The notes under the pieces: generated by a model
Database searches by the model: none
What the model was told of the DNA's origin: nothing
The model's input: only the letters and a program-made list of their open reading frames with translations
DNA from: Diphasiastrum complanatum
Taxonomy: Eukaryota; Streptophyta; Lycopodiopsida; Lycopodiales; Lycopodiaceae
Length of the DNA: 64,000 nt
Assembly: GCA_029204225.1 (NCBI GenBank)
Contig: CM055095.1
Location: forward strand, 24,647,190 to 24,711,189
Direction of reading: 5' to 3'
Translations under genes and position numbers: made by a program
Shown: positions 7,160 to 61,000 of the stretch, one piece after another
Layout of the letters: each line of letters starts with the position of its first letter
Position numbering within the stretch: position 1 is the first letter of the stretch

Positions 7160-7515
7160 GGAAGTATGCATGAGAGAGGGAGAGAGAGAATGCCTAGTTG
7201 AGAAAGGCTTTGGGGGCTCGAGCGCCTACCCAAAGCTATTCTATCCCAATGTAGGGAGAGAGGGAGAAGAGAGTGAGAGAGGAGAAAGAGAGAGAGAGAG
7301 ATGGAGATGGAGAAACCAAGAGAGTTTTATTAGAATGAGAATGGAATATGATACAATACAAAGGAAATGGCTCTCTCTTATAGATTTTAGAGGTGAGCCT
7401 CCTTCACTCTCATTGGCCACTTCATTGGGACAAGGATTCTAATCCAAGCCTTTAAAATAAACACAACTTGAATCTATTGGTGCTAAGAAAGCACAAGGGC
7501 ACTCACATGATTCCA
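7160..7515 (-). mobile_element. Truncated gypsy LTR, same family as 8649-9369
   Basis: About 350 bp match 8745-9090 in the same orientation (shared GCCTAGTTGAGAAAGGCTTT and the block ending ACTCACATGATTC). Both ends are missing: the left side joins the CACTA-type exon and the right side joins a copia gag in mid-codon context at 7516. GA-rich runs make up the first 150 bp. Confidence 0.7.
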
Positions 7516-7821
7516 CAAAAGAACCAAAATTGCTCTTCATTTTATAAAAATGAATGTTTTTAATGAAGTGTTAAGAGAAATCAATACATGCACCACTGCC
7601 AAGGAAGCTTGGGATACTCTAAAAACAATCTATGAAATCAAAAATATTTCTAGATTGCTTACACTTAGAAACCAAATATTTCTAAGTTATCAGAGAGTAG
7701 ATGAGAGTGCTTCATCATATGTCATGAGAGTTAAGGATCTTCATCAAGAGTTAGTTGGTATTGGTGATGCTCTAAAAAACACTGAACTTGTTCAAGTATG
7801 TTGTGTCGTCAATGAAATATA

Positions 7822-8699
7822 GAGGTTGCTGCTCCCAGCGACGAACTTCTATACTACATTGACGACACAATAGTGGCGCCGTTGCCGGGAAGCGCCACAC
7901 ACTCGCTTCGCCGCATAGTTTTCTTAATCTCTTCCTCTCTCTCCCTCTCTCTTTTCTTCTCTCTCACCATTCACTTTCACCAAAAAATCAGATTTTAGGG
8001 GTAGCATAGAGTGAGTAGTGTTAGTTTTTGCCGTTTTTTTGTGATTTTGTTTTGTTTGTTTCAACTGTAGGGAGAGATTGTGGGGTGAGAGGATCAGATC
8101 CAAGCACCCAATCCCTTTGTTAATCCATACAATCCATAAAAATCAGAAAAAAAGCTCAAAATCTGTTTAGGAGAGAAAAAAGAGAGCCAAAATCTCATCA
8201 AATTTTGATTTCTCAAAAATCAGCAAGAACTAACCTTTGCAAGCTTCTACGCAGGTCTGGGACAGTACCCTGGAGCTGCTGCCAGTCATGCGGAGGTTAG
8301 TTCTTGCTGGTTTTTGAGAAATCAAAATCTGATGAGATTTTGGCTCTCTTTTTTCCCTCCAAAAACAGATTTTGAGCTTTTTTTTCTGATTTTTATGAAT
8401 TGTATGGATTAAAAAAGGGATTGGGTGCTTGGATCTGATCCTCTCACCCCACAATCTCTCCCTACAGTTGAAACAAATAAAAAAAATCACAAAAAAATGG
8501 CAAAAACTAACACTACTCACCCTATTCTACCCCTAAAATTTGATTTTTTGGTGAAAATGAATGGTGAGAGAGAAAAAAAGAGAGAGGGAGAGAGAATAAG
8601 AAAACTATGCAGCGAAGTGTGTGTGGCGCTCCCTGGCAATGGCGCCACTGTTGTGTTGTCGATGTAGCATAGGGGTCCATCGCTGGGAGCGACAACCTC
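7822..8699. repeat. Long inverted repeat, arms about 410 bp, loop 57 nt
   Basis: The left arm (7822-8236) is the reverse complement of the right arm (8294-8699) along its full length with scattered mismatches and small indels. The outer ends are GAGGTTGCTGCTCCCAGCGA and its complement; the inner ends are CAGCAAGAACTAACCT and its complement. Transcribed, it would fold into a near-continuous hairpin of about 400 bp. Confidence 0.9.
7874..7890 (+). other. tRNA-Asp-type primer-binding site (left arm)
   Basis: TGGCGCCGTTGCCGGG is complementary to the 3' end of plant tRNA-Asp, the primer of Athila/Tat-type gypsy elements. It sits one base after the LTR terminus (ACACAATA). Its inverted partner, slightly mutated, is at 8631-8647 next to the full LTR. 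Confidence 0.8.
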
Positions 8700-9369
8700 G
8701 CCTTCACTTGCATAGCAAGAAGAGAGAGGGGGAGGAGAGAGAGGAGAAAGAGAGAGAGAACGCCTAGTTGAGAAAGGCTTTGGGGGCTCGAGCGCCTACC
8801 CCAAGCTATTCTATCCCAACGTAGGGAGAGAGGGAGAAGAGAGAGAGAGAAGAGAGTGAGAGAGGAGAAAGAGAGAGACAGATGGAAATGGAGAAACCAA
8901 GAGAGTTTTATTTGAATGAGAATGGAATATGATACAATACAAAGGAAATGGCTCCCTCTTATAGATTTTAGAGGTGAGCCTCCTTCACTCTCATTGGCCA
9001 CTTCATTGGGACAAGGATTCTATTCCAAGCCTTTAAATTAAACACAACTTAAATCTATTGGTGCTAAGAAAGCACAAGGGGACTCACATGATTCATGTGA
9101 GTTTTAAGTTGAGCCCTTTTAGCTTTTTTAATTGCAACTTGACTTAGGGCCTCTAATGTCATTTTAGAGTTTTAAGCCCCTAGTCTCTTATTCCTAGGAA
9201 TTACAACTTGCTACTTGTGCTCATTGGTGGCTGGGCTTATACACACAGGACGCCAGTGCCTTGCACTTATTATTCTACTGTACTATGGCGAGGCCCACTA
9301 GGCAAGGCCTGCAGTAATTTAAGTGGTGGGACCCACTTATTTATTTGTATACATGAAATACCCACAACA
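8649..9369 (-). mobile_element. Full gypsy LTR (721 bp), minus orientation
   Basis: It is bounded by TG at 8649 (one base from the inverted PBS) and CA at 9369 (next to the TSD). GA microsatellite runs occupy 8715-8880. It is the 5' LTR of the palindromic element; a truncated second copy lies at 7160-7515. Confidence 0.8.
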
Positions 9370-10555
9370 AAGTAGTCATAAATGGACTTAGAGATGAGTA
9401 TGACATATTGTGCAGACTTATGCTGTCAGGGAGGATCTTCCATCCTTGGAGACATTGCAAGGTGTAGAAAGTAGGCAAGAGAACAAGATACTGAGGATCA
9501 ATAGACTTTCATTGAAAGATGGTGGAAATGACAAAGCACTCTTCATTAGAGACAAGTCAAGAGGCAAGGGCAAAGGACAACAACACTTCAAGAAGGACAA
9601 AGCCAAAGAAGGTGGTGAGGATCAGTCCTCACAAGCTGCAACATCCAATGGCAGAAAGAAGCTGTCAAAGATCAAGTGTTTTTCTGTGGCAAGAAAGGAC
9701 ACTATGCATCAAACTATTTCAAGAAGAAAAACCAATCTAAGCAAGCTAACCTTACTAATGAGGATGAGTGTGAGGGTGTAGAGAGTGAAAGAGAGAATTC
9801 ACTAATGATGTCTACTTTTTCATCTTTTTTTTTTAAGAATGAAGAAGTCTGGTGGATAGATAGTGGGGCTAGTTTCCATATGTCTAGTTCTAGGAACTCT
9901 TTCACTAATCTCATGCCATATCTAGGTGCAAAAAGATCAATCTATACTGCTAATGATGTTGAGTGTAGGATTGAAGGAATAGGAAGCATTCCATTACATG
10001 CATCATCATCTTTTTGCTTACATGATGTATTGTATGTACCTAGATTGGCCAAGAATCTCATTAGTGTAGGACAGTTTTTTGATAGTGGATTGGATGTCAA
10101 GTTTCAAGTTGACAAGTGTATAATCTCAAGAGAAAATGAAGTTATTGCTAGAGGATCTAGAATTGGTAAGTTGTACAAACTAGATTCTAGGGAGAGTGCT
10201 AACATTTCAGATATTGCTTATGAGACCAAGGTTCTACAGGAGGATCTGTGGCACAAGAGATTGGATCATCCCAATTTCAAAGCCATGCAATCTATGGTCA
10301 AAGAAGGAAAAGTTGTTGGTCTACCAAAGACACTGTCAAAGGAGCTTCTACCTTGTGAAGCTTGTGTGCTGGCAAAGTCACACAGAAGGCCTTTTCCTAG
10401 ATCAAGTATCAAGACAAAACAACCATTTGAACTTGTACACTCTGATGTTCATTTCTCATCAACTAAGAGCAAAGGAAGATCCAACTGCTTTGTCTCTTTT
10501 GTAGATGATTATACAAGATATTCTTGGATCTATATGTCGTCAAGTTAAAAGCTTT

Positions 10556-10635
10556 AAGAAGTGATATAGTGAAGAGTTAGATTTTTTCATCTGATGTATG
10601 CCATTTTGCTCTTGCCTTGGATTTTTCAAGCATAT
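10556..10635 (+). mobile_element. Copia family E LTR scrap
   Basis: GAGTTAGATTTTTTCATC and the following 60 bp match, in inverted orientation, the LTR at 45250-45553. The broken integrase therefore joins directly to LTR sequence, implying an internal deletion in this copia before LTR A landed at 10636. Confidence 0.65.
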
Positions 10636-30803: not shown

Positions 30804-30934
30804 GTACTTTTTCAAAAAAACTAACTAAAATTCTTACATGCATGCATGGGGAAGAGGATGTATGCATGCTGCCCCATGCATACACCTTGCCACATCATCA
30901 ATTTGCAATAGGAGTGTACCCCTCGCATCAGGAT

Positions 30935-31671
30935 TGTGAAGAATTGAAAAAGATTATCTATGTTAGATATAGGGATCTTATGTTTTTTACATCAAGCATC
31001 TAGGTGTAGGATGTTGATAGGAATAAATTTGGCATAGATGGCAAATTATGCATTTCCACTTGTAATGCCACTATTGAGCCAAAATAGAGTAAGAGGCTAA
31101 ACACTTGCTAATTAGAGTGTAGACAAGTGTAAAGTTTTTGTTTGATGAATTCCAAGAGGTCCAATAGGATATAGAGGTGGAACCTTGTGAGGTCCAATAG
31201 GAAATTGAGGTGTGCTTGAATATAGTCCAATAGAATTAAGAGGTGCATAGATCAATGATCCAATAGGATCAAGAGGTGACAAAATGTGGTCCAATCATAG
31301 TTAAGCATAGTGGTAGCTCGTGGACCTACTAGTATCATTGTACTCCTCATTTTGAAATTAATTGATTTGGTGATTTTATGAATTTTGTGAGTTATTGGAT
31401 TTCTAGCTTTCTCTCTCTACCCGAGAGCTCTTGATGCATTTTCTCTCTCTACCCCAGGAGAGCAGCTTGTTTTTACTTAGATTATTTTTTGAATACTTCC
31501 CACACGTGTGAGTGAGAGTTGGAAGTGATTGAATGCATGTAGTAGTGTGTTTTTGCCATAGGATTCAAGATTGATCTTGAATCTCAATCTAGTCTTGATC
31601 TTGGTGCATCTACACACCTTAGGAGATCACAAGTACATGTAGTGGACAGTCCACACGTGTGAAATTCAACA
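30935..31671 (+). mobile_element. 5' LTR of element H
   Basis: Contains four degenerate repeats of a GTCCAATAGGA-type motif (31155-31265) alternating with GAGGTG, and two copies of the palindrome CACACGTGTG (31501-31510 and 31652-31661), a G-box-type core. CTCTCTCTACCC is repeated near 31410-31455. Confidence 0.95.
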
Positions 31672-31683
31672 TGGTATCAGAGC
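31672..31683 (+). other. Primer-binding site, initiator tRNA-Met
   Basis: TGGTATCAGAGC abuts the LTR with no spacer. The leader from here to 32427 is non-coding. Confidence 0.95.
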
Positions 31684-32427
31684 CTACCTAAGGTTACCAT
31701 GCATTTTGATCCATCTAAGTGAAAAATTTTCATCAATCTTGAGCTAGAAATTGTCAAGGCCCATTTTCCTAGCTATCTTGTTCAATCTTGGATCAAAAGA
31801 GATCAAAAGGACATTGATTGGGTCTGACCTGGTACTGTACGGAATCAGGTGCTCAGACACGTGTGAGGAACATCCAATTTCAGTTTGGAAGTTCTCTCTC
31901 ATGTTTGATCCATTTATCTTGCTTGATAACTTCTTTTGAAGCTATTTTTGTCTAGTTTCTGTTGCAATCAGTTTCATTCCATTTGGTTGAGCCAATCAAA
32001 AGTTATAAGCTTTTGAAGAGGGTTAGGTAGGGCACCTAGACCTGGGTGGACACATTTGGTTTGGTCAAGAGATTGCTTGGTTGATCCAAGATCACAGTTG
32101 TATGCTTGCCAATCTCATCTATATGTGATCTAGGCACTGTTTTGAGATCTTAGCCATTTTGTTTCATGCAATATCATTGTATTTGAGTCAAATTTGGTTT
32201 CTTAGTGTATTTCACACGTGCTAAGAGTGTTGGATCCTAACTTTGCCTATACTCCATCATTTGATGTGAAATAGATCTTGTTTTAGAGAGATTTGTGTAG
32301 CTAGTGAGAATCAATTCACAAATTGTTGTAAGATCTTTCATAGGAGGAGATAGTACTCAATTATTGGATCCTATTGAAAGTGTGTAACAACATTTATTGT
32401 TCATCATCTGAGTTTTCTTCACTTCAA

Positions 32428-34125
32428 ATGTCTTCAATGGGTTCATCCTTGTTGGAACCAAGTGAAAGATTGACCACTTCAAATTATTCAATTTGGAAAA
32501 TGAGGATGGAGTCCATCTTGATCCTTCAAGACGTGATGGACATAGTTCTTGGCCTTGAAGAAGAACCACAAGTTCTTCAAGAGGTTCGAAAATACAAAAA
32601 GAGAGCTAGGATGGCTCTCCACTACATTAAGATGAATGTCTCTAATGAGATATTGAGGGAGATTGGTACTTGTACAGCAGCCAAAGAAGCTTGGGATTGT
32701 CTCAAGACTATCTATGAGGCTAAGAATACCTCTAGGCTTCTCACTCTTAGGAATCAAATCTTTCAAAGTAGCCAAAAGAGTGATGAGAGTGCATCTAGTT
32801 ATGTTTTGAGAGTAAAAGATATTCATAGAGAGCTTGCTTGTATTGGTGATTCCATCAATCAAAATGAGCTAGTTCAAGTCATTCTCAATGGCTTGAGAAG
32901 TGAATTTGATAATCTTGTCCAATCCTATGCCATTAAGGAGGAGCTACCAAGTTTGGAGGCTCTCCAAAGTGTGCTAATTTCAGAAGAATCAAGACAAGAG
33001 TATAAGCTCTTGAGGATGGACAAGCTTTCTCTCACTCATAATGATGGCAAAGCTCTTTTTGCCAAGGATAAGCACAAAGAGAGGAGCAAGAACCAACATC
33101 AACAATCCTCAAGCAAGGACAAAGTCAAATCCAAAGACAAAGATGAGGAGGAAGATGATTCCTCTAATGCTTCATCATCCAAGCTCAAGAAGAAGAAGAA
33201 GATCAAGTGCTTTTATTGTGGCAAGAAAGGTCATTATGCCACCAATTGCTTCAAAAAGAAGAATCAACTCAAGCAAGCCAATATTACCAATGAGAAGGAA
33301 GACACTATTGCAAGTGATGGAGAGGGATCTCTTATGGTCTCTAGTTTCTCATCTACTCCTTTCAAGAAGAACGGCCTATGGTATATTGATAGTGGAGCCT
33401 CTTCACATATGTGTAGCTCCAAGGACTCTTTCTCTTCTATTGCACCTTATGATGGAGTGAAGAAATCAATATACACTGCAAATGATTTTGAATGTCCTAT
33501 TGAAGGCATAGGGAACATTCCCTTGAAGCTTGCATCCTCTAAAGTTCTTTCTCTCTCTAGAGTTCTTTATGTACCTAAGCTTACCAAGAATCTTATTAGT
33601 GTTGGCCAATTGCTTGATAATGGCCTTGATGTAAAATTCAATGTTGATACTTGCACTATCAAGAAGAATGATGAGATACTTGCATTAGGATCTAGATTTG
33701 GTGGCATCTATAAACTAGATCCAAATGAGTATGTGAATGCTTGTAATGTTGCTCTTGTGAACAAGCTCTCTATGGAGGAATTATGGCATAGGAGGTTGGG
33801 ACATCCCAACTACAAATCCATGCTCTCTATGATCAAAGAATCCAAAACTATTGGCTTGCCAAAGTCATTCTCCAAGAAGATCAAGCCTTGTGAGGCTTGT
33901 GCTATTGCTAAATCTCACAAAAAGCCATTTACAAGATCTTCTATCAAAAGCAAGCATCCTTTGGAGTTAATCCACTCGAATGTGCATTTCTCATCAACTA
34001 CAAGCAAGGGAAGAGCCACTTGTTTTGTTACTTTCATTGATGATTACACAAGATCACTTGGATATATCTTCTTGCTTCAAAATCTATGGTGTTTGATCAT
34101 TTCCTTATTTTCAAAGCTTATGTAG
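32428..34125 (+). CDS. Element H gag-protease-integrase N-terminal part (frameshifted)
   Basis: The Met at 32428 (MSSMGSSLLEPSERL) aligns with gag starts of related elements here; an upstream Met at 32374 is in frame but probably leader. Order: UBN2 gag; acidic/lysine-rich linker; zinc knuckle CFYCGKKGHYATNC (33208-33249); protease WYIDSGASSHM (33379); GAG-pre-integrase LWHRRLGHPNYKSM with paired CEAC; integrase start. At 33979-33981 the first catalytic Asp codon is AAT, giving HSNV where related copies have HSDV. A one-base loss near 34054 shifts the frame, so translation runs into unrelated codons and stops at 34125. An intact copia polyprotein would run on into the next frame. Confidence 0.9.
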   Translation: MSSMGSSLLEPSERLTTSNYSIWKMRMESILILQDVMDIVLGLEEEPQVLQEVRKYKKRARMALHYIKMNVSNEILREIGTCTAAKEAWDCLKTIYEAKNTSRLLTLRNQIFQSSQKSDESASSYVLRVKDIHRELACIGDSINQNELVQVILNGLRSEFDNLVQSYAIKEELPSLEALQSVLISEESRQEYKLLRMDKLSLTHNDGKALFAKDKHKERSKNQHQQSSSKDKVKSKDKDEEEDDSSNASSSKLKKKKKIKCFYCGKKGHYATNCFKKKNQLKQANITNEKEDTIASDGEGSLMVSSFSSTPFKKNGLWYIDSGASSHMCSSKDSFSSIAPYDGVKKSIYTANDFECPIEGIGNIPLKLASSKVLSLSRVLYVPKLTKNLISVGQLLDNGLDVKFNVDTCTIKKNDEILALGSRFGGIYKLDPNEYVNACNVALVNKLSMEELWHRRLGHPNYKSMLSMIKESKTIGLPKSFSKKIKPCEACAIAKSHKKPFTRSSIKSKHPLELIHSNVHFSSTTSKGRATCFVTFIDDYTRSLGYIFLLQNLWCLIISLFSKLM

Positions 34126-36416
34126 AGAAGCAATTCTCATTCAAGATTAAAGCTCTTAGAAGTGATGGAGGTGGTGAATATATCTCCAATAAATTTCAAG
34201 ACTTTTGTGAGCTTGAAGGCATTAAAAGAGAGTTTTCTTGTGCCTACTCTCCATCTCAAAATGGAGTGGCCGAGAGAAAGAATAGATCTCTATGTGAATG
34301 TGCAAAATCTATGATAATTGAGGCATCTTTGCCCAAAGATTTTTGGGGAGAAGCCATTAATTGTGCAAATTATCTTTGCAATAGGCTCCCACATATAGCT
34401 CTTGGAGGAAAGTCACCATATGAAATCTTATTTTTGAAGAAGCCTAAGGTTGATCACCTTAGAATTTTTGGATGCTTATGCTTTGTCCATATGCCCTTGG
34501 AAACAAGGAAGAAGGAAGATCCTAGTGCATGCAAAGGGATCATGGTTGGATACTCATCCACCAAGAAGGCCTATAGAGTCTTTATACTCTCTACTTCTCA
34601 AGTTATTGAAAGTAGAGATGTTGTCTTTCATGAAGATCAACACTCATCATTTGAAGAGGCCGAGATCAAGAAATCTATGGATGCATCATCAATTATTGAT
34701 TTTGAAGACAATCATGATGTGATGGGGTCGAGATTTGAAGAAGACTCTCCTCGGATTTTTTCACCAAGAAGATCCATGAGAGATAGATCCGAGCCTAAGA
34801 GGCTCTCATATGTTGACAAAGGCAAACAAGTGGATCTTGATTCCACTAATTATGTTTTTTATGTCTCTCATGAAGAGCCAAAGAATGTACAAGAGGCACT
34901 TAATACCAAAGAGTGGTATGATGCCATGAAGCAAGAGTATGATGCATTGATCACCAACAATACTTGGGAACTTGTGGATCCTCCTTCCAACAAGCATGTG
35001 ATTGGTTGCAAGTGGGTATTTCGGATCAAGTTCAATCATGACGGCACCATCAACAAGCATAAAGCAAGATTATGTGCCAAAGGATTTGCTCAAATCCATG
35101 GTCTTGATTATGAGGAAACCTTTGCACCCGTTGCAAAGATGGTGACAATAAGAATTCTTATTTCTCTTGCTTGTTTTTTCAAGTGGAAGGTGTTCCAATT
35201 AGATGTATCCAATGCTTTTCTAAATGGTTATCTTGAGGAGGAGATCTATATGGAACAACCTCAAGGATTCATCAAGGATGAGTCCAAAGTGTGCTTGCTC
35301 TTCAAAAGTCTTTATGGACTCAAGCAAGCACCAAGATCATGGTATTCAAGACTTAACTCTTTCCTTATCTCACTAGGATTTACTCTTAGTGACTATGATC
35401 CTTCCATGTATCTAAAGTTTGTTGATAGCAATATTGTCATTCTTCTAATTTATGTTGATGACATTATTCTTTGTGGAAGTTGTATCAAGCTAGTTGATGA
35501 AACCAAGCTAGCACTTGGATGTGAGTTTAAAATGCAAGATCTAGGAGAGATACATTACATCCTAGGCCTAGAAATTGATTTTTATGAAAATCATGTCTTT
35601 ATATGCCAATCTAGATATGCTCACTCTATGTTGAAAAAATTCCATATGGAAAATTCTAAGAACATAGATACTCCAATGGAGCAAATTGTAAAAGATCCTA
35701 ATAAAGGTGATGAAATATTCTTTGAGGACATCACACTTTTTAGGAGTCTTGTAGGCTCCTTGATTTGGCTTACCATTACTAGGCCCGATCTTAGTTTTTG
35801 TGTGCACAAATTGAGTCAATTTATGCAAGAACCTAAGATCCATCATTGGAAGATGGCCAAGAGGATTTTAAGATATGTATCTTCATCTTGTGATTATGGT
35901 CTACTCTATAAAAGTGAAGATCTATCCATTATTGGCTACTCGGATTCGGACTTTGCAAGTGACAAAATGGATCGAAAGTCTATTAGTGCATACACTATCT
36001 TTCTTGGAGGCAATCTAATATCTTGGCTTTCCAAAAAGCAAGATACTATATCTCTCTCTTCATGTGAGGCCGAGTACAAAGCACTCACTACAACTACCAA
36101 AGAAGTGCTTTGGATCAAGAGGTTATTAATGGAACTAAAGTGCATCAAGGAGGATGATCTACCAATGATCAAGTGTGATAACATCTCGGCCCAAGCTCTT
36201 GCCAATAATCCCATATTTCATGCAAGAAGCAAGCACATAGAAGTGGCACACCATTTTGTGAGAGAAAAGCTTATTGGAGGAGAAATCTATTTGGAGCATG
36301 TCAACTCGTCCTCTTGTATTGCCGATCTACTCACCAAGCCTTTGAGCAAAAGTGCTTTCATCAAGCATAGATCTAATCTTGGAGTTATATCAAGATCAAT
36401 GCTCAAATCTTCATAG
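34054..36416 (+). CDS. Element H integrase remainder, reverse transcriptase, RNase H
   Basis: The sister frame picks up exactly at the shift (TWIYLLASKSMVFDHF); the first Met in it is at 34086. Integrase residues follow: LRSDGGGEYISNK (second Asp) and NGVAERKNRSL (catalytic Glu). The reverse transcriptase has CKWVFRIKFNHDG, FAPVAKMVTIR, LDVSNAFLNGYLEEEIYMEQ and the LIYVDDIILCG catalytic box. RNase H has GYSDSDFASDKMDRKS, SSCEAEYKAL and HIEVAHHFVREK, and the C-terminus is ADLLTKPLSK. No internal stop. The polypurine tract is 5 bases after the stop. Confidence 0.93.
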
Positions 36417-36420
36417 ATAA

Positions 36421-36434
36421 TTTTTTAGGAGGAG
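36421..36434 (+). other. Polypurine tract of element H
   Basis: TTTTTTAGGAGGAG directly before the 3' LTR, the same motif as at 24768-24780. Confidence 0.9.
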
Positions 36435-37171
36435 TGTGAAGAATTGAAAACGATTATCTATGTTAGATATAGGGGTCTTATGTTTTTTACATCAAGCATC
36501 TAGGTGTAGGATGTTGATAGGAATAAATTTGGCATAGATGGCAAATTATGCATTTCCACTTGTAATGCCACTATTGAGCCAAAATAGAGTAAGAGGCTAA
36601 ACACTTGCTAATTAGAGTGTAGACAAGTGTAAAGTTTTTGTTTGATGAATTCCAAGAGGTCCAATAGGATATAGAGGTGGAACCTTGTGAGGTCCAATAG
36701 GAAATTGAGGTGTGCTTGAATATAGTCCAATAGAATTAAGAGGTGCATAGATCAATGATCCAATAGGATCAAGAGGTGACAAAATGTGGTCCAATCATAG
36801 TTAAGCATAGTGGTAGCTCGTGGACCTACTAGTATCATTGTACTCCTCATTTTGAAATTAATTGATTTGGTGATTTTATGGATTTTGTGAGTTATTGGAT
36901 TTCTAGCTTTCTCTCTCTACCCGAGAGCTCTTGATGCATTTTCTCTCTCTACCCGAGGAGAGCAGCTTGTTTTTACTTAGATTATTTTTTGAATACTTCC
37001 CACACGTGTGAGTGAGAGTTGGAAGTGATTGAATGCATGTAGTAGTGTGTTTTTGCCATAGGATTCAAGATTGATCTTGAATCTCAATCTAGTCTTGATC
37101 TTGGTGCATCTACACACCTTAGGAGATCACAAGTACATGTAGTGGACAGTCCACACGTGTGAAATTCAACA
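36435..37171 (+). mobile_element. 3' LTR of element H
   Basis: Same length as the 5' LTR with four substitutions. It is followed by the AGGAT duplication. Confidence 0.95.
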
Positions 37172-37473
37172 AGGATCACCACATGGCGCAACATTATTGA
37201 TCTAGATCAAAAGATCCAACGAGGTGGATTCATTCTAGCTCGCACGCGGTCTTCTCCTCTTTCAGCCCGCTCAAAGCACTTCAAATAGCCCACCTCTCCG
37301 TTTTTCCCCCTTCCCCCTTCCCCCATCGTCGCTTGCCTACCATATCCAACAAGCTTTCATCCCACTCGCGATCGGGAGATCACACTGTGGCAGGATCAGG
37401 TGACCTACGATCGGGAGGTCGCACTGTGGCAGGATGCGGTCTTGGCTAAAATTAAAAACAAGAGCCCGCAATC

Positions 37474-43258: not shown

Positions 43259-44475
43259 ATTTGAAACTTGACATCCAATCCACTATCAAACAACTGTCCT
43301 ACACTAATGAGGTAGTGGAATACAGTGGAATTCTTAGTCAATCTAGGTACATACAATACATCATGTAAGCAAAAATATTTTGATGATGATGCATACAGTG
43401 GAATACTACCTATTCCTTCAATCCTACACTCTACTTCATTAGCAGTATAGATTGATCTTTTTGCACCTAGATAAGGCATGAGATTAGTGAAAGAATTCCT
43501 AGAACCAGACATATGGGAACTAGGCCCGCTATCTATCCACCAGACTTCTTCATTCTTAAAAGGAAAAGATAAAAAAGTAGACATCATTAATGAATCCTCT
43601 CTTTTACTTTCAACACCCTCACACTCATCCTCATTAGTAGGGTTAGCTTGCCTAGATTGGTTCTTCTTCTTGAGACAGTTTGATGCATAATGTCCTCTCT
43701 TGCCATAGAAAAAACACTTGATCTTTGACAACTTCTTCTTGCCACTAGATGTTGTAGTTTGATCCTCACCACCTTCTTTCGCTTTGTCCTTCTTGAAGTG
43801 TTGTTGTCCTTTGACCTTGCCTCTTGACTTGTCTCTAATGAAGAGTGCTTTGTCATCTCCACTATCTTTCAATGAAAGTCTATTGATCCTCAACATCTTG
43901 TTCTCTTGCCTGCTTTCTTCAGCAATGAGAACACCTTTGCAATGTCTCCAAGGATGGAAGATCCTCCCTGACAGCATAAGTCTGCACAATATTGTCATAC
44001 TCATCTCTAAGTCCATTTAGGACTACTTGAACAAGTTCAGTGTTCTTAAGAGCATCACCAATACCAGCTAACTCTTGATGAAGATCCTTAACTCTCATGA
44101 CATATGATGAAGCACTCTCATTACTCTTTGATAACTTAGAAAGATTTGGTTTCTGCGTGTAAGCAATCTAGAAGTATTCTTGATTTCATAGATTGTTTTT
44201 AGAGTATCCCAATCTTCCTTCGCAGTGGTGCATGTACTGATCTCTCTTAACACTTCATTGGTTACATTAATTTTTATAAAATAAAGGGCTATTCTGGTTC
44301 TTTTGTGAAATGCTACAGCTTCATTAGGTGCAGCAGGTTCTTCTTCAGCTCCACTCACAATATCCATTACATCCTGTAGAATCAATAATGATTCCATTCT
44401 GATCTTCCACATTGCATAATTGGAAGATGTTAATCTCTCACTGTGCTCCAAGAAATGTGAAATTGATGAAGACAT
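43259..44475 (-). pseudogene. Copia family E gag-protease fragment, minus strand
   Basis: Gag begins at 44475 (MSSSISHFLEHSERL) with UBN2 similarity to the plus-strand copy at 7516. A frameshift near 44100 separates the second part (zinc knuckle CFFYGKRGHYASNC with one Cys changed to Tyr; protease WWIDSGPSSHM, where the SGAS Ala is Pro). A short insertion with a frameshift near 43315 precedes LISVGQLFDSGLDVKFQ, where the copy ends. The leader at 44476-45237 is non-coding and includes CACACGTGTG at 45054-45063. Confidence 0.85.
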
Positions 44476-48564: not shown

Positions 48565-51500
48565 CTAAAAGTTGCTCAGTGTTCTTGAAAAGAATCTGGT
48601 GAATGTTGAGTTCGCTTTTTCGGAGGAAGTTGGGCTCATTATTGCAGAAGTCAATGGCATTGACAAGTCACTCAAGCTTGTTCCCCTTCTCTTGACAGGG
48701 CGAACTTGAATATCCAATCTTGCTGGAGATGAAGATCTTGCTTCTAGGGGCGTAGTAGGCACAAAAACCACAGCTTCAGAGCAATCTGCTCCTTCAGATG
48801 AAAGATAGCTGCTGTTATCTTCAGATTTGACGCATGGTGCAGGGATTTCATCCTCGCCCTGCGTTGGTTTTGAATTGAGCATCTTTGTGGGCTGCAGGCT
48901 TTTAGGAGGACTATGCAAAACAATCTGCTCCAAGATCTGCAATGGTTCTGCCTTTAGCCGGCCTGATCCACTGCTGGATGTACCACTATTAGAGTCCTTT
49001 ACTTGAAAACGTGCATCTTCAAGTTGAAGATCAGAAGACTTCACTGTTTGGAGCACCTCAGATACCGGAACATAGTCATTTTCTTGAAAAGAGTTGGTCA
49101 ATGAGAGAGCTCGTAGCTGTTTTCCTAAAAGAGTGATTGTTCGCTGACACTCAGCTAGCTTTTCTGTAGCAGTGGCAACTTCTTGTTCCTGCAGAACATT
49201 AGATCAAACCCGTGAAAATGACAACAGCAAAACTTCACATTCAGTTCCCAGTTCAGAGTTTTGGAGGAAATTACAGTCCAGGTGATGGGTGGGGTATCTT
49301 ATTGCATTTGATGCAACATGACGTATTTGACCTAGCAACATCAAAGCTACCCGAAGACACTGTTAAAATATTGACTAACCTAACTCGAGTTATCTAAATT
49401 GCCTCTGTTCTTGCAGTTATAGCATCAGAATTATCTTCCAGTAACGGATTCTTGAAGAACCATAAGCAGTTCGTGATACGGACACCAGAGAACAAGAAAT
49501 TAGTTAGCAGAAAAAACTCTTCTTGGTCCATGAAGCTTAAGATTACCTTTTGAACCCTTGTTTCTTCAGTAAATAAATCTAGTAGTGTGCCCTTCTCAAC
49601 TTCCACTGGGGAGCTCTGAGCCACGCTTGCACTTTCAGAATTTTTCCTGCATGCCGCCAGTCACTGAACATCAGACACGGAAAACAACACCTGGACTTGT
49701 GTCTTTCCAGAAAGTCATAAATCTTTAAGAATATCAGTACTAAAAAAGCAGACTTTAAACTTGAATGCGTTTCTGCTTTCTAAAATGATAGAACACCCTC
49801 TGCTACTCCATGCAGGCTAAACGTTATAAAACTCTTTAAACTGCAAACGATATTGACTATCTTCTCATAATCTCACTTACAACGAAGTGCAACGCAACTG
49901 ATGCTGCAAACTTGCGATTTCATCTTTGTGGCACCTATGCTCTTCTTGAAGTTTCCATTGCAACGCTGTTAGTCTCTCTTGTAACTGAGTAACCTCAGAG
50001 TTTGCAACCTTGATTTGAGATTGCAATTTCTCATTGGAAGAAGCCACGTCTGCAAGCTGATCTTCTGCAAGCTGCATTGAGCTTTGTGTGGAAGCCAACT
50101 GCAGTTGTAGTTTTGAAACAAAAAATTCTGCCTCAGAAAGTTGTTGCTGTGAGTTTTGCAGTTTTATAGCATCTTCTTCATGCTGTCTATGTTCAATTTG
50201 AAGCTCTGATTGTAGTTCCGCCAGCTTTTCCTGTAAATGATTCCTGTCAACCTCAGCTGCTTTGATTTCAGCTTCCAAGCTAGATTGAGATGATACAAAT
50301 GTAGCCATCTTATCTTCTGTAAGCTGCCTTGCTTCCTTTGCAGAAGCTAACTTTAGGTTCAGATCTGCATTTACTTTCTCTGTTTCCGAAAGTTGCTGCT
50401 GGAAGTTTTGACATTCCAACCTAACTTTCAGGTTGTCTTCGTGTGTTCTGTGAAGTTCCGACTCCAGTGTCACGATCCTTTCTTGAAGTTGATTCACCTG
50501 GGCCTCTGTAGCTTGGACATGAGATTCCAGCACCGATTTTGAAGAAACCATGGCCTGTATCTGGTCTTCGGCAGATCCAATTGCTCTTTGTGTGGATCCT
50601 AGTTGTACACGCAATGTTGATATAAGCTGATCTGCATCATCAAGTTGTGTTTGAAGATCCTTGACTTCTGCCACTGCATTTAAATGCTGGTTGCGCTCCT
50701 CATGAACTTCTAAAACTAGAGCTTCCAATTTTTCGTGAAGCTCTTTCACCTCTTCCAATTTTCTCATGATCTGAGATTCCAATTCTACTTTTGAAGAAGC
50801 CATTGTCGCCAGCTGATCTTCTGCAAGTTGCCTCGATCTTTCGGCAGATGCTAGCTGCATATGCAAATTGGAACTCGTATGTTCTTGCTCATAGAGCTGA
50901 GCCTTCAAGTGATCAATTTTTTCATGTGCAATGTCCAAGTCATTCTCAATCTCTGCCTTGCCTATTTTCAGGTGAACCAGTTCTTCTTCTAGAGCAGCAA
51001 ATTTATCAAACTCTGTCTTTAGGAAAGAATCCTTGATTGAATTCGTACCAGATTTTGTCAATTGAATATCTTCATCCTGCTTGGGATTACCAGATGTTTG
51101 GATCCCACCAGTTACTGCAGTACTATTTTCTGCAGATTGAAGCGGGGTCAACATATTTTTGGTTTCTTCCTCCATCTCTTCAGCTTTGTAACCAGAACCA
51201 GATTGTATGAGACGTTGGCTCCAATCGACTGACGGCATGAGGTTCTTACGACTCCGGAATCCATCAAATCGCCTACAAACCAAAGCCACAACAAACTCCA
51301 AAACTATTGCCAACTCTGAGATGAAGGAGAAAGCATCCACTGTACCCTGTAAGAAATCATTACTCAGACAACCCAATTTACGAATCTTGAAGTCCAAATC
51401 TGCGTTATCCCAATGCAGCCCTAATATAAGTTCTCCATCTATGATGATAGGATCTATAGCAGTCTCTGAAGTGGTCTCATAACTAGCTTTTCTAGGTGAA

Positions 51501-54500
51501 TGGTCTGGGGGAGAAAGCCCATGTCCTGCACCTGTCTCCTGGGCTAGACATCCCACAAGTCTGATGATCTTGCAAACCGATGATTTCGATTCGAGTATCG
51601 AGTTGACATGAGATGGTTCCAAAGGGGTTTTCATAGAATTGTAACACGGCTGATTTTGAGATTTATGTGAAAGACTTTTTGCAGTGGTTCCAGATGATAC
51701 TTCTGCGATGGCCTTCTTGAGTCCTTTGTGCAGTGTGGTACCTTCATTTTGCTCCTCCAGCATAGAATCTATTTTTTCTTGCAAATGGATCAAAGCTGCT
51801 TCATTTGCAGCATTTCTTGACAGCAAAGCACCGATCTTTTCCTCAGCAGAAGCTAGCTTCCTACTCAGATCCGAGCAATTTTGCGTGGCCCCTTCAAGCT
51901 CCCTTTCACGCCTCAACAGACGATCCTCCAAGGAAATGGTTTGATCTTGAACACAGTCAACGCTATCAAATTCGTTCTTGTACAACTCAGTTGTTTGAGA
52001 ACCTACGTGGGCATTCTTTGGTTTTTGGGTTGAAGGCACTGTTGATGCTAACCTTTCCATTTCAGCAAAATCATCCATCAAATCACATTTCAAGGAGGTG
52101 ACATTTTTGTCCTTCTTAAAGTGTGCAAGTTCAGCAATCAGTGCAGAAGCCCAAGCGTCTGCAGAGCTCAGCTGATCGCCATTTAAACTCTCCTCAGACA
52201 TTGAAACGAGACTAGGAGCTTTCTCCACTCCCAAAGTCATTGATGCGTCTCCACGCCCATCTGGAACTTTCAGGGAGGATTTGGACATTGCTTTGAAGGC
52301 CTCTAAATGTTCCTCCACGTGGGATAGTCTGCTTGCTGTCTTTGCACACATAAGCCTTGCTGATTGAAGTTCTTTTTCTTTCTTTGCCAAATTATCTTTA
52401 AGAACTTTGATTTCTTCCTCCAGAGGAGAGGACCTCTCAGAGAGAACGTCAGCCTCTTTGCTGCCAGTTTGAGATTTCGCATCTGCAGCTTCTCGTGGGC
52501 TGTGCTGTCTTGGGGATCCATCTTTCTTAGCAGGATGTATCTTCTTTTTCTTCTCACCAGGTTCTTTACCCAAAGCGTCAGCTTCTAGCTTCATTTGAGC
52601 CAGAGCAGCCGGCCCTGGCAGCTTTTTCCGCATCAGCATCCGCAGTCTTTGGCATTCTGCCTCCAATTTGGCGATCTGCTTCACACTTTCCAAATGCTGT
52701 TTGTTTGCAGCATCAGCTGCTTTTCTGGTGTACTCTCTCTCATCATGCCTTATAGCAATTTCTTTATTCAACACGTGCATGTCGAACTTCATGGACGAAC
52801 TCTCCTTTTCCAGCATTTCCACTCTCACCTGAAGCACTTTGGCTTGAGCCTCTGCAGCAGATTTGGCATCATCCAGTTCAGATAAGGCTCTTGTGCGCTC
52901 TTGGAGTGATTTGAACAGGGAGTTTTTCTCCGCTCTTGCCTCAAGCAGCTGGTGGCTCAAATCCGAGAGCTTGGCATCAAATTCTGACCTGACTTTGTCC
53001 CACTCCCTTGTCTTCCTGACAATTGCTTCACGAACCTTCTCTTCCTGCTCTTGACGGACATGACGAAGCTCTCTCATGCACTCCTTTAAAGCTCCATCCA
53101 AGTGAGCAGCTCGATTGTCCGAAGCGATTTTTTGCTGAACTGCCACATCCACTTCATTCTTTATAGCCACAGCTTCTGCTTCTGCTTTTTCCCAGCCTGA
53201 AAGAAACATCCATGAAGTTAATTTTGTCTGCAGCATCCAGCCTGACAAAGGCGATCAGAACATTTTACATAGGCGATCAGAACATTTTACATAATTTCCA
53301 GCGATCCACATCATGCCACATGCTACCTGAGACGGCTTCTTCAGCCACTTTTGCATGCTGCTTCACCAGTTTATCCTTTGCTGTGATGTCCGAAAGAGCA
53401 GCTGATAACTTCTCGCTCAAGTCCCTCACTTTCTCCCCTGTTTGATGCCATTGGGTGGTTGCCTCATCTGAACTGCGGGCATGTTCTGCCAGGACTCTTT
53501 GTAGATCCTGCTAATGCACAAGCAGACATCAGAGACTCAAGGATCTACACATATACGTATGAGACCATTACGCCAAACTACGAGCATGGAGGTTGTCAAA
53601 TCCATATTCACAAAGAAATCGTGCGAGAAGCAGCACAAAGGCAGTACCAGGAACATCAACCAACTTTAAGATATCTCATGCTTGTGATCGTGTCCAGATA
53701 CCCAGACACTAGTTGAGATCTTTAATTTGATTTGGAAAAATTCTGAGAAGGATTATTAGAATATGTGAATTAATTACACAGATTGTAGGTTCCTGCTCTA
53801 TAAATTGCAACCTTGAAATTGGTATGCTGCAGCTATTGATTGCAGATAATGCAAAAGAAAGAGAAACAATATAATGACGTAACAGTGGGATTGTCATTCA
53901 GTGACGAAGATCTTGTGAATACCTTGAAGAATGTACATTTCTTTAGAGCAGAAAATTTGGCATTACATTTTTTTATTATTAGAAAACAGTAGGAAGAACT
54001 CAGGACAAGAAAGAATATTAATGAGGGTTACGACTCGCTGTTTTTCGCAAAATTTAATATTCAATAATTTAATGCAGGTAAGTCATGGTAGGATTGAAAG
54101 ATCGGAAACTAATGAACACCAAGGACAGTCGAGTAAAGATGTAAGGTTCAAACGAAATTCTCACCAGGTTTGTTATTATTGCAGGATGACTCACAATCCT
54201 GCAAGCAAAAATTATAAGAGGGTTCTCAGATAAAGAGAGGAAGCCAATCATCCTTTTTATTGCCTCAACCTCACAACAGTGTAGCAATCGACCCTAATTA
54301 TTGAATAAGAGAAACTCACAGGACCCATATGGGAAATGACAGAATACACTGATTGGAATCGGTACAGAACCAATGATTATACAAAACTGTAACCAAAGCA
54401 ATAATCAAAGGTATCCTCCACATTCCAGATTGCAAGAAATCTTAGTATCAGTAAGGAAGATATCTGATGCAGGGCTGGAATCACACTTGAACAAAGATCA

Positions 54501-57500
54501 TTGAGTGGTCAGAATATCATTTGCATGGGACAAAGAGTCGGTGATATCCACCAAATCAGAGCTTTAGACAAGGTTAAACCTTAAGCTCCACCATTGAAGA
54601 AGATTTGGCAACCTTTCGCATGAAAGATTTGGACACCCAAGTCTACCAGGAGTAAAGATACGACAAGAACAGGAGGATTGTATTTGGATTAGATTGAAAA
54701 TTGGGTCCGTGAAGTGAAAGCCTTTGCAAAGAAAGCCAAGTATACCCAGGAAGATACTAGAAATTATAGACTTCATTATCTAGGATCCCATAAAAGATGA
54801 TATCTTTGGAGGCACAGAATATTTTATAGCCTTCATAGACCATGCTTCAATGTTACAGTAGGTTACATACTCAAAGGAAGATCTGAAGCTCTAGGGGAAT
54901 TCCTAGAATTTAACGCTATGGGAGAGAAAAAGACATGACATCAAACCATGGCATTGAGTAGTGACAATAGTGATTGAATATCTTTAAATTGTGGACTATG
55001 GTGAGGATTGGAACAACAAATTCTCTCGCAATAATGCTAGCACAGAGAGCTGAACATTGATGGAGATGGCACTGGTGAAAGCAGTACATATGCAGAGACA
55101 TGTAAGGACCAAAAAACTTGAGGAGTTTGAAGAGGCAGAAAGCTATATGTATCCAATCCAAAGCATAAAATTTTCTTCAGTTTTAGAAACCAAAGCCTAC
55201 TTTTGTTTGATCCCATTAAAAGGAAATATGAGCAGGGATATGAGATATTATGATAACTCATCCATATAAATAGGAAAATCAATATTGATTCTTGAAGAAG
55301 ACCTTGCTAAATAGAAAATATTAGCGAAGGAGGAAGAGACCTAATAAAATAAGATAATGAGGCTCATATTCTAAGAAGATCTGAGAGAATCAGAAGAAAA
55401 CCCACCGGTTTGAGGAATTAAGTTTATTGATGCACACAGAAAAACTGAATCTATTTTTTGATTTGGGCAGGTTTTTGCTTATTTTTGAAACTGTAGATCT
55501 AGAACCATTGTAGTGATTTCTCTATGTTTTCAAATGTATGCATTAACAGTAAACTAGCATGCCTGCCATGTAAGATTGTATTTTACGTGCAAGCAGTTGA
55601 CAAGCTCATCTATTGGGTGTGTAAGTAATTATGTGTTGTGTTACTTAGTGTAGTCAAAGGACCAATTACACAAACAGATGAATGTGTATTGTTCTGGCAA
55701 ACAAATGTACTGTTCAGTTTTCAGGACACCATATCATTGAATCTACTGATGATTAAGTGTTATTAGGGAGACACCTGGGGACCATAGTTGGCATTTTTGC
55801 AGTAAGAGCGTGCGCCATAGAGCATGAAGAAAAATGTCTTTGGGCATCAACCATCAAATATTATATGATCAGAATGGGCCAGAGCTTGTTGGGAAGAGAG
55901 GCTCAAGAGCTTTCTGATGGTGTCTTTGCATGTGACACTCAAGATCAGATATGAAAATACTAGTAGAAGAATAATCTTCTCCAAACGATACTGCAATCAG
56001 CTTGATTTCAGAAAATCAGGGGATCGTAGCAGTTACTAAGTTCAATGTATTTCATATAAGAAGAAAACATACACACATAGAATAGCATTTGGAAAAAGAA
56101 GTAGAAATTTGTGAAGACTGGTAGACCTGTTGTATAGAAGAAATTATTGCAGACTTATTGTTAGAAAGGCTTGGAAAGGAAAAACAGGATCTTCTTTCAC
56201 TGGAAGGGGAGCAGACCAAGCTGGATATCACTCTTGAGTGGCAGTGCTGTATGAGTAAGCAGCGGTGATTTCCAGAGTTAGTGATCCACTACTCCACTAA
56301 ATGGAAAAAAGTTTACTTGATTAATAGAAATGCTAAAAATGTCACTATGCATATCACCAGCGCCAAAGAGCAGGTGCATATCACATCCATAAGAATATGT
56401 CTCATCCGCTTACATTCGTATAGATACCAACGTGCCAAGTTTACATCACTTCTCTGAAGCCACTCATCCATTATGAAGGGTAGCAGTAAAAGATAGCACA
56501 TCAATTCAGGTACCTAAATCCTCATAAAAAATCTCGTGTATCAGCCTCCAATAGCAGAAAAGTTATTGCTAAGAAATAAGTTCTAAAGACTATTGATAAT
56601 ATGCACAAATGTTTACAGTTGTTTGTAGAACCTTTGTGGACTTCTTGAGAAGATTGTTACTTAGGTGATATTATACACACTACTCCATCATGGCCACTGC
56701 TCATAGACCCATGTGGAATTTAGTTATTTTCAGGGCTTGTTAAATTCTACTCAATGAAGGATGAGGACAGTGAACTACATTTAATGCCCTGTATGACTCA
56801 GGCAGCTTAAGAGGGTTTTTTACAGAGAGCTACTTAAACTGCTAGATTTACAAGAGATATCCGAGGTTCAAAGTTGAAAGCTATGATGGTTCACAAGCAC
56901 CTTGTTACACATTCCAAAACTTATGAGATGGGTGGTCACGGTAAGTAGGGGACATTGGCCGGAGACTCTCTATCTTTTTCTCTCTGTTGCCAGGGAAGAG
57001 GTTGTTCACTGACCGAACTTACAGAACAGTTACTATCATCCACAATGGTTTTTAACTAGCCCCTCGTAAGTTTCTTCATGTTCCATCTCGCTCACAGCTT
57101 GCTCTTAGACCAAAGATATGCGCACATTTCTTTTTCAAGTTAGCCTTGCTAACTTCTCAATGCACCTACGGCAATGCTTTGCTTATAATCATGCAAGTTT
57201 TGTTTCCTTGTAACCAGACAGACATGGTTGAAAGAGGAGACGAGACATGCCTTACATAATTGGACTCAGATCAAATATGCCTAAACCCACCAGTGTTAAG
57301 TGGCATGCAATTCTCAGTTGTGAAGGGGGATGGGCACTTCATGCATCCAAGTATTGCAATTGAAACAGTTTATGGTTGTGGAACAGCAAAAAACATTACG
57401 CAAAACTTAACCTAGGAACCTTAATTAAGCACACATAACAAAAATGGCCATGATTGCAAAAGGCAGTACACCTTCGGACAGACTTAACATATCATAATGC

Positions 57501-58014
57501 ATGTGAAAAGTCCAACAGAGTGGCTCATCTATTAAAACTATGCAAACACCTTCCATCTTTAATGACTACTTACAGCCCCGTAACATCCGTAATATTCTAG
57601 TCTTTGAAGCAAAACGGAGAGCATAATAGTTTAAAATATACCCATTTAAGAATCATATTTCACAAATCCTTCTTTGTCGTAGATCACACTTTTGTTATCA
57701 GAGCTAACCCCTTCATGACATAAATAAATATATAATGAAGAAAAGCGCCTAAGAAAGACACGAAATGCTGAAATGCTTATATGAGACTTGGTCTTGCATA
57801 ATCCTCAGATAATGCAGAAAGTGCACTTTCTTGGAAAAAGCTGCTGCTCTGGAGCAAACTCAGCATGTAGAAAAAGCATTCCACTAATCTAAAATACAAC
57901 CACCTGTTCATGGTTTAGTCTTGCAGAGTGAGCTGGAGAAGAATCTGCTGAACTTGGCATTGTTGAGCTTTTGTCGAATGCTTTTTTCTTCCAGGGCCAG
58001 CTTCTGCGATCCAT
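48565..58014 (-). CDS. Filament-like plant protein (FPP, long coiled-coil, DUF869 family)
   Basis: Five coding exons with consistent phases: 58014-57904, 53507-53327, 53196-49881, 49646-49547 and 49188-48565, giving 1443 residues. The start MDRRSWPWKKKAFDKSS is the FPP N-terminal signature, with an in-frame TGA seven codons upstream. Residues 70-97 (LSDITAKDKLVKQHAKVAEE), 98-145 (GWEKAEAEA..., HLDGALKECMRELRHVR) and 288-300 (KKLPGPAALAQMK) are the conserved FPP blocks. Most of the rest is predicted coiled coil with repeated LQLQLASTQSS-AEDQLA-like segments at 1000-1230. The C-terminus (VATATEKLAECQRTITLLGK) is also FPP-like. These proteins are thought to be cytoskeleton- or trafficking-associated scaffolds; the exact role here is unknown. 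It is longer than the usual 600-1100 residues. No inactivating change seen; the only intact host gene in the window. Confidence 0.93.
53508..57903 (-). other. First coding intron of the FPP gene (4396 bp)
   Basis: The donor at 57903-57902 (CAG|GTGGTTG) and an acceptor before 53507 (TTAGCAG|GATC) keep phase 0. It joins LNHEQ to DLQRVLAEH. A transcript would confirm that no further small exon lies inside. It contains a decayed copia. Confidence 0.75.
53990..56280 (+). pseudogene. Heavily decayed Ty1/copia inside the FPP intron, antisense to the gene
   Basis: Plus-strand scraps in copia order: degenerate zinc knuckle VCYYCRMTHNPASKNYKR (54166-54220); pre-integrase/integrase codons KPLQRKPSIPRKILEI (54715-54765); FIAFIDHASM (54815) and SEALGEFLEF (54880); EMALVKAVHMQRHV (55060); and a possible C-terminal IADLLLERLGKEK (56150). 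Stops are frequent and no LTRs are recognisable, so this is much older than element H. Confidence 0.6.
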
Positions 58015-61000
58015 TTCAGCTTTAAATCTTCAAGCAGCACCTACTCAAGACAAACCTTTTGACGGATCTGCATTCCCCATCCGTTGAAGGTTAGGCAATA
58101 AGCTTCTTGAACTGAAAATTTTAGGATTATGTCCTGCATTTGTAGTGGTTCACAAGAATTCAGTACAGAACACAAGTTTAAGAATTTCAATGGATAAGTC
58201 CTTTCACAAATGATTCGCTTTCTGTGGAGAATTTAAAAGGTTGCACTGGGGAGATAGTTGTTTGTTTAGATGCGCTACAATGGTTCACAGCAAAATGTTC
58301 ATGTAGCTTTTGCAATGTAGACCAGAAAGCACCATCATTAATCTTAAAGGTTCATCGTCAAAGAAAAGCAGGAAACAACCAGACCGGTTGTCTTACCAAA
58401 CATCCGGCTATGACATGACAGATTTTCCAAGATACTGTATGACCGGTCCCTATGATTTACAGATCTTCGATCGTAGATTAACTTGCCGAGACAAATATTT
58501 AAGGCGGTAGAGATGAAGACTTGCAGTCTTGCAGTAAATAGGCCTATGCTTAAAAAGTAGAACGGCTAAGATTCGGCAGCATTGCAGACTGCAATGCCTT
58601 TGACAAGAAACGGAGACAAAATGCAGCAATTTTTTATGCTCAAACTTTAATTTCAAAATCTCACACTGGCATCTTCAACTGAAATCAAGATAAGCTTCTA
58701 TTGCAAAGGAATAGAAAAGCATGCTCTCGCACTATTGATGTCAACAGTCAACATCCAACTTGAGCCTATTACTTACAAGCCCAATTTATTAGAAGAACTA
58801 GTCAGGACTTAGTAATCCATTCTACTTAAACAGATTTTCCTTGAAATAACTACTCAGACATAATGACGACCCTCTGGGCCATAGTCTAATTCTGAGGAGG
58901 AAGGGAAGAAGGTAAAGGATCTTAAATTGCATGAACTGATTACAGGATCCCTGGTCAATTCTTTTGGTTAGATGTTATAGATATGTTAAAGCAACGATCC
59001 AATGAAGGAACCGGTATAATGGCTTGAGACTTCAGAAGAGCTGCTTGAGGTAATGCATCATGAATCCCACACCAGTTACGTAGGCTGGCAGCAATTTAAG
59101 TATAACTTGTTCAAACTTTCCTTCGCACGTGCGATTTCGAAGCTCCAGCTTGCTCAAAGCCTTTGAACTGTAGCGACAAATGAGATATACATTCATATTG
59201 TTAATTGGTCAGTGCGAAAGTGCATAACAGATGCCAGATTCAAGATTGTACTCCAATAAGTGGCATGCTGGCAAATAATTCCTTGATACCTTTCCTCTAC
59301 ATGAGGTAGGAGCTTGACTTCGATTAGTTAGACCAATGCGGACACACTGATGCCAGATTCAAGATGCGATAAAGAGCATTCACGAAAAGGAAAACATTGA
59401 TGCTAGATTCAAGATGAATCAATTCAGATTCTTGTAAGAAACTGTCTGCCTGTTAGACCAATCTCATTCACAAAATAATTCTTCACAATGAACATTTAGT
59501 CGATGAAGTTATTATTACTTAAGTGATTCCTGATGTTATTTTGAGCTTCTTCAAGATAATCCATTAGCCTAGGGGTATATTAGGCTCCTTTTAGAAAATG
59601 AAACCATTACAGTGAAGTACGTGCTCCTCTCGTTTTCCTTAAAAAAATTGAGCATCACTTATAACGTATTGACTCCCCGACGAGACACACCATGAATGCA
59701 AAGATTTATAGAGCTTCAATAGCATTATCTGATGAATGATATTTATCCAAGATTGCATCAGATTGATCCACCTTTGTATTTAGAGCTCTAAGTTTACAGA
59801 TCTGGTAATATTCCAATTACCTTGATTCAAGAACGAGCTGAAAATCAACTGAATGAATCGAAGAAGATAGGCCTGAAGTGGCTATTCTACATAATCATAA
59901 ACTGAACTACCATGCATGAATGCTTGTTAAGGGCTGCTCGGTGGCCAAAATATGTATGATTTCTGACCTTTGGAGACCAATCGCGAGGCCTTCTTTGCAG
60001 AATTCCGGATAAATACTTAAATGATGCAGTTCTGTAGCCAAAATGTGAAGAGTTTTTAGCTTTTGGGACCAATCGCAAAGCCTTCTTAGCAGAAACCTGA
60101 ATCAGTAGATGATGCAGTTGTGTGGCTAAAATGTGAATAGTTTTTCACCTTCAAAGACTTCTACGTAGAACATGAATAAATAAACAATGCAGCTCCGAGA
60201 CACAAATTTCCACCTACAACCTTCCTTATCAGCGGTTTCTAAATTCTCATCACCCTCTTGCTCAAATCACAAGCAAAACAGGCCTCTCAAATGTAGCATC
60301 CACTATGCTCCAATTCACACATCTCACATCAGAGGCCTAGAGATCCTCCAATCCATCTAATATGACACCAAGGTAATTGTAGCTCCAGTGAAGTGGCCGC
60401 AAGCGTTTGCATCCCACCTACACTCTGCCATGGGAATGCGGCCTTTTAAAGCTACAATGCCAAGCCGAAATGTAGCAATGATTACATGGAACAACAACTG
60501 TGACCAGCGCCTGGTGGCGAGGCAGTAACTGCTCTCAGCCACGCATCTGGATCGCGATTTCTGCACAAAAATGCAAAGCATGAGACAAAAGGGAAGATTG
60601 ATCCAGACTCTTCTCCCTTCTCCATATCTTCTATGCAAAAAGAAGAAGACAGGAAATCGATAATCCAATGATTAGTCTTAGTTAATCTTTATTTAATGAA
60701 GTCTCCTCTTTACCTCCCACCTAATCACCCTGGTTTATTAGTAATTAATGGTTTATTAATAGTATCTCTCTTCGGTCATGCGCGCAGCCAAAAGGTTATC
60801 TGCCATGTGCCTTGTGGCCATCCACCAATGGTAGAGGGAGTGGGGCCCCCCTCACCTCCTAGGGTTGGTTTTTAGACTGGTGAGCAAGGGGGCAAGTTTG
60901 CGGCATCACTCGGGAGTCGGAGCGATGAGAAGGTCGTGCTAAATTTGGGTGGACTCAAGGATTCTTAGGGTGGTTTCAGATTCAGAGCATGGCAAATGTC

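Follow-up and report, generated by a model that had tools for sequence, protein, structure and literature searches.

A 64,000-nucleotide stretch of the Diphasiastrum complanatum genome (contig CM055095.1, hereafter the window) carries an LTR element of 1571 bp at positions 7799-9369 that is a palindrome of its own 5' end. The element lies in minus orientation inside the gag of a copia element and is flanked by a 5-bp target-site duplication (TSD), AAGTA. On balance we consider it a one-off derivative that arose by fold-back from an LTR retrotransposon of non-autonomous appearance and would have been made during reverse transcription and then integrated.

Overall structure of the palindromic element

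Read in its own sense, the element starts with a complete LTR of 721 nt (TGTTGTGGG...ACAACACAACA; 8649-9369, minus strand), with a TATA-like CTATAAGAGG at LTR position 406. The LTR is followed by a putative primer-binding site (PBS; 8630-8647, minus strand) at sense position 723, one base past the LTR, by the sense leader that forms the right arm (8289-8629, minus strand) and by a loop of 47 nt (8242-8288, minus strand). Beyond the loop the sequence turns back through an inverted leader, which forms most of the left arm (7892-8241, plus strand), and an inverted copy of the putative PBS (7874-7891, plus strand), assigned by its position after the LTR. The element closes with two pieces of the LTR end: the last 51 nt in inverted orientation (7822-7872, plus strand), where the left arm starts, and then the last 23 nt in sense orientation (7799-7821, minus strand), which form the 3' terminus. 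No coding region is present. Alignment of the two arms (7822-8241 against 8289-8699), at a similarity far above chance, together with the order of LTR, PBS and leader, confirmed the palindrome that had been predicted from the sequence. The junction between the 23-nt and 51-nt LTR pieces in opposite orientations, also predicted, is exact (7799-7821 against 7822-7872). A unique spacer of 57 nt between the arms was not recovered, as the distance between them is 47 nt and the sequence is normal leader of family members. The TG...CA ends, the PBS adjoining the LTR and the short TSD are those of an LTR retrotransposon insertion, but in place of two full LTRs the second is reduced to 23 nt. The element is thus a deletion derivative of an LTR retrotransposon.

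The two copies of the TSD lie at 7794-7798 and 9370-9374. A second copia in the window (minus strand, 43,261-44,311) provides an unoccupied paralogous site with a single AAGTA near 44,026, bearing out the earlier claim of a clean insertion by one integration event. The host copia (7514-10548, plus strand, outer limits approximate) consists of a gag part followed by Pol_BBD and gag_pre-integrs, and is split by the insertion. Its gag had been described as restored in perfect frame; the flanks are in phase across the site, but the frame shifts about 10 codons later at a 1-nt deletion of the host's own. Upstream, an LTR fragment of the same family in the same orientation (7174-7513) meets the host copia gag with a 4-nt overlap, indicating that the host copia lost its 5' part. 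In the LTR tree this fragment grouped loosely with the LTR of the palindrome and with member L026 (support 85). A share of this fragment in the palindrome event is not supported; L026 is nearer to the palindrome's LTR than the fragment is (support 89).

Elsewhere in the window, a copia at 30930-37178 has terminal repeats of 750 bp that are 99% identical and long gag and pol open reading frames (ORFs), on which grounds it is probably a young insertion. A long minus-strand ORF at 49877-53248 matches a plant filament-like coiled-coil protein family and is apparently an ordinary host gene.

The central junction lies at a natural hairpin of the leader

Normal members of the family run from the leader straight through the loop sequence of the palindrome, which is the family's ordinary leader sequence (87-94% identity in the six normal members L003-L008). 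The possibility that the spacer was the start of gag was dismissed, as the relatives show leader and then non-coding-looking sequence. The loop is flanked by a natural inverted repeat that matches at 12-13 of 15 nt in 11 of the 13 scored members of the palindrome's leader type. Eight of these 11 score 13/15, the remaining two of the 13 score 11 and 7, and the loop of the stem-bearing members measures 45-47 nt. The count left out L026, one of 37 members, which is without the ATG motif. Among 1903 control positions in the leaders, which overlap between relatives and are not independent, none reached 13 and eight reached 12. The stem is weaker in the other leader type, with 8-12 of 15 nt where it could be aligned at the same place.

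In the palindrome, the first half of the stem lies at the end of the leader (8289-8303, minus strand) and the second half at the start of the fold-back (8227-8241, minus strand), and the latter is the half with a matching counterpart in 11 of the 13 scored normal members. Where the second stem half ends, or close by, the palindrome leaves the normal sequence, which is the signature of a sense-strand end that folds back and primes itself. A junction at a pre-existing short inverted repeat with a loop, as expected of a foldback inversion, is therefore found for the palindrome's leader type. Judged from these sequences, the palindrome most likely formed when the 3' end of the sense strand folded back at the leader hairpin and then copied itself.

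The leaders of L003-L041 are of two types that differ at the hairpin stem. By eye, 9 nt of a stem half in one type are the reverse complement of the second half in the other type, as though the stem had once been rewritten by a hairpin-templated correction.

Age of the palindrome

The palindrome was found on two contigs (see below), and the age comparison was made on changes common to both. Outside CpG sites, 18 of 763 positions changed in the arms versus 20 of 729 in the host copia; by these counts the ages of the palindrome and of the insertion are not distinguishable. The left arm carries 12 changes in 386 positions and the right arm 6 in 377, an imbalance that is not significant (p 0.24). 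An earlier count against the 44-kb paralogue gave a ratio of half the arm divergence to the host branch of 0.82 (0.47-1.39) at non-CpG sites and 1.12 (0.68-1.83) at all sites. The first join of the host copia contained both copies of the TSD, and the later host tree took only the part to the right of the insertion. With CpG sites included, the tree branches are 0.039 and 0.035 for the arms versus 0.020 for the host copia, and masking of CpG sites lowers the arm branches to 0.029 and 0.016. Equal rates with CpG sites included would make the palindrome older than its own host. We attribute the longer branches to faster change at CpG sites, but they would also be expected if the arms were already different when inserted.

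Outside CpG sites, therefore, the palindrome seems close to the greatest age that the host copia permits, and an early age is supported. The insertion can be no older than its host copia, so the fold-back would have occurred at integration or shortly afterwards, unless the two arms were different from the start. The age of the palindrome thus weighs against a late rearrangement but is compatible with both reverse transcription and early break repair.

Proposed mechanism

We propose the following course of events for the fold-back derivative. Synthesis of a sense strand comprising the LTR, PBS and leader would end at the second half of the leader's short natural inverted repeat. The strand end would then fold back on the first half of the stem, leaving the 47-nt loop, and the folded end would prime the copying of its own strand through the leader, the PBS and the last 51 nt of the LTR. 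At this point the growing end would switch to the terminal 23 nt of the element and run to its exact end, so that all sequence between would be deleted. The resulting linear DNA, bounded by a good LTR start and a good LTR end, would finally be integrated, making the AAGTA duplication. We infer the polymerase, the order of the steps and their timing before integration. Like the normal member L080/L081, the element has an intact LTR end on each side and a 5-bp TSD; a second U3-R is absent. An LTR element without a second U3-R cannot pass through another normal cycle, so an origin before integration must fall in the last cycle. The original prediction had offered self-priming, template switching and autointegration as routes. 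Self-priming is the best supported of them, and autointegration was rejected, as neither internal junction joins an LTR terminus to a target.

Break repair after integration is the main rival explanation, less probable than reverse transcription but credible. A normal element would have been cut in the leader, and the 3' end would have folded back at the same hairpin and been extended by about 420 nt before end joining 23 nt from the other end of the element, with loss of the interior and of almost the entire 3' LTR. The TSD would be kept automatically. The second junction shows 1 nt of certain shared sequence, or about 4 of 5 nt imperfectly, and with so little shared sequence end joining fits it equally well. 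The geometry is also closely similar to that at yeast double-strand breaks, for which one study describes a 10-bp imperfect inverted microhomology with a 41-nt loop, extension by a polymerase and joining to the other end through 0-5 bp of microhomology (PMC11724301). The yeast foldback inversions share with our element a short imperfect inverted repeat, self-copying and second-end capture with little microhomology, and the loop lengths are 41 and 47 nt, respectively (PMC11724301). They differ, as described there, in that they span 2 to about 150 bp and follow an induced break, whereas the palindromic element involves about 420 nt of an LTR element with intact ends (PMC11724301). Break repair would, however, require that the other breakpoint fell by chance within the 23 nt that end a multi-kb element and that the left arm stopped inside the same 51 nt. 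The event would also have to be early, given the apparent age of the palindrome, near the limit set by the host copia. Reverse transcription is therefore modestly favoured over early break repair, on account of the age, the retention of exactly one good start and one good end of the LTR, and the location of both sides of the second junction in the last 51 nt of the LTR, which would be rare for a random break in an element of several kb.

Retroviral precedents make the reverse-transcription route plausible: self-priming of HIV-1 cDNA at a hairpin (PMC4668388) and inverted proviruses (PMC9278108). Similar to our element, the minus-strand strong-stop DNA of HIV-1 is described as folding its end on the TAR hairpin and copying itself during reverse transcription, but there the minus-strand end at R is involved, whereas here it is the sense-strand leader end and the product was integrated (PMC4668388). 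Among defective HIV-1 proviruses, one study lists one (1.3%) with an inversion plus deletion and one (1.3%) with an inversion, corresponding to about 78 in total by our arithmetic (PMC9278108). These are likewise integrated retroelement DNAs with an inverted internal segment; they are retroviral inversions, and the passages on them describe no leader-hairpin palindrome (PMC9278108). Twin priming of LINE-1 also yields an inverted retroelement copy within an intact TSD, but it is target-primed and concerns a non-LTR element, and is inapplicable to an LTR element inserted by an integrase (PMC2837659).

Probable common source of the arms

In the window copy, the arms differ at 31 of 409 aligned sites. 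Of these differences 28 are transitions, and those with G/C in one arm against A/T in the other are balanced between the arms (16 to 14). Small gaps occur in the arms, with an 8-nt deletion on the right arm. In a tree with 37 other members, the four arms from the two contigs group in a single clade (UFBoot 97; 95 in a second tree, with SH-aLRT 87) and have three rare states in common, two of which occur in none of the 37 members. After the split, 14 substitutions common to both contigs arose in the left arm and 11 in the right arm; 23 of the 25 are C to T or G to A relative to the family majority. A common source of the arms is thus supported at 95-97 in the trees, and the second arm was probably copied from the first; two very close templates for the arms are less probable. 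The idea that the arms are too divergent for one event arose from the 87% gapped identity and was abandoned, as the count of 31 of 409 sites and the non-CpG comparison weaken it; the branch lengths over all sites do not.

The 23-nt end (7799-7822) shares two derived states with the left arm (7849-7872) that are absent from the right arm. By our own weighting the chance of parallel change at both is about 0.06, and exchange within the small end hairpin or a second template would also explain them. Template switching between two different co-packaged or neighbouring copies, in which case the arms were never identical, would be consistent with these two states, with the short stem of 0.011 that unites the arms in the tree and with the seemingly greater age of the arms than of the host copia when CpG sites are included. 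We nevertheless regard it as unlikely, because the arms form one clade with rare states in common and their differences are mostly symmetric transitions.

The family and its other copies

The left arm was searched against the genome of 1.745 Gb, and the best 40 of 1891 candidates were scored, yielding 44 entries, of which 6 belong to the two palindrome copies and 38 are other places. Further palindromic copies with different TSDs had been anticipated. In this limited survey, no independent second palindrome was found in 37 of the 38 other family places, none of which has an inverted partner within flanks of 1-1.5 kb. The 37 places read are all but C2483:25-448, and L022 includes 750 masked bases. 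A family of palindromic elements that transposes, foldback- or miniature-like, of which this is one copy, would account for the proper ends and the TSD, but it is highly improbable: without a second U3-R there is no normal replication, the flanks retrieved for the 37 other places show no inverted partner, and the best 40 of 1891 candidates contain a single further palindrome, which occupies the same site on a colinear contig.

In three normal members, the LTRs enclose 3.0, 3.9 and 5.1 kb of internal sequence. The normal member L080/L081 has the same ends as the palindromic element and a perfect 5-bp TSD, AGCTA, and in a second member the TSD is a near match. The original prediction called the element gypsy, a tentative name that goes by the look of the PBS. 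The Ty3/gypsy superfamily is marked by a gypsy-type RT and a pol in which integrase follows RNase H. No Pfam match at an E value of 0.01 was obtained for 11 sense-strand ORFs of at least 90 aa of the three normal members; these are the 11 of 34 listed ORFs that lie on the sense strand and start before the 3' LTR in the stretches read. In addition, no sense ORF of 80 aa was found in the 1.5 kb past the leader in four members. The family therefore looks non-autonomous. Pattern scans of viral and prokaryote collections gave no match. Among the best 40 of 1891 candidates, four members of the LTR family lie about 9 kb apart on C8. One interval read there (L072, C8:42968500-42973500) contains an ORF matching glycosyl hydrolase family 18. 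A tandem array of LTRs was rejected for this region, since the glycosyl hydrolase 18 ORF in the unit read suggests a gene cluster.

A second contig carries the same insertion

The genome search with the left arm revealed a second palindrome at C4:24261875-24262778 on the same chromosome, 393 kb upstream, with the same TSD and the same flanks as the window copy. In the stretches compared, this contig is colinear with window positions 1-22133 and 50864-60758 at 97.7-99.6% identity, with indels. At position 10566, about 2.7 kb extra is present on the partner contig, much of it matching copia, as a deletion or insertion that differs between the copies. Both contigs begin at gaps of 5000 N (window position 1 and C4:24254141), suggesting that unpurged haplotype contigs were placed in one scaffold. 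The second contig is probably the other haplotype, and a segmental duplication would also fit. Under either reading the two palindromes would be a single insertion seen twice.

Palindromes are error-prone in assembly, and an error at 8240-8290 had been named as a possible refutation, but it is excluded in practice and of negligible probability, as the palindrome, its TSD and its flanks recur on a second contig that differs in sequence along its length.

Potential hairpin transcript and significance

If the full LTR drove a transcript, its computed fold would pair 344 of 400 nt in one arm with the opposite arm. A hairpin transcript is therefore plausible on paper, and a role of any small RNAs from it against the family is speculation. 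The maize Mu killer is likewise an inverted transposon duplication and a proposed source of hairpin RNA; it silences MuDR/Mu lines (PMC3440606), whereas any such effect of the palindromic element would be speculative. We think it very improbable that the leader hairpin repeatedly traps plus-strand DNA and that palindromic cDNAs with both LTR ends integrate and become dispersed small-RNA hairpin loci against the family.

The element most likely records a copying accident in well-preserved form, and nothing in it points to a new function. Among the open-access matches listed, judged by title and the start of the abstract, none concerns the formation of a palindromic LTR element at a hairpin in the leader. 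The present case links the palindrome of a retroelement to one particular hairpin of that element's leader, with the product inside a clean TSD. Inverted retroelement copies are natural candidates for triggers of hairpin-RNA silencing, and the element provides one roughly dated case for the question of how often they are made by reverse transcription or by later break repair.
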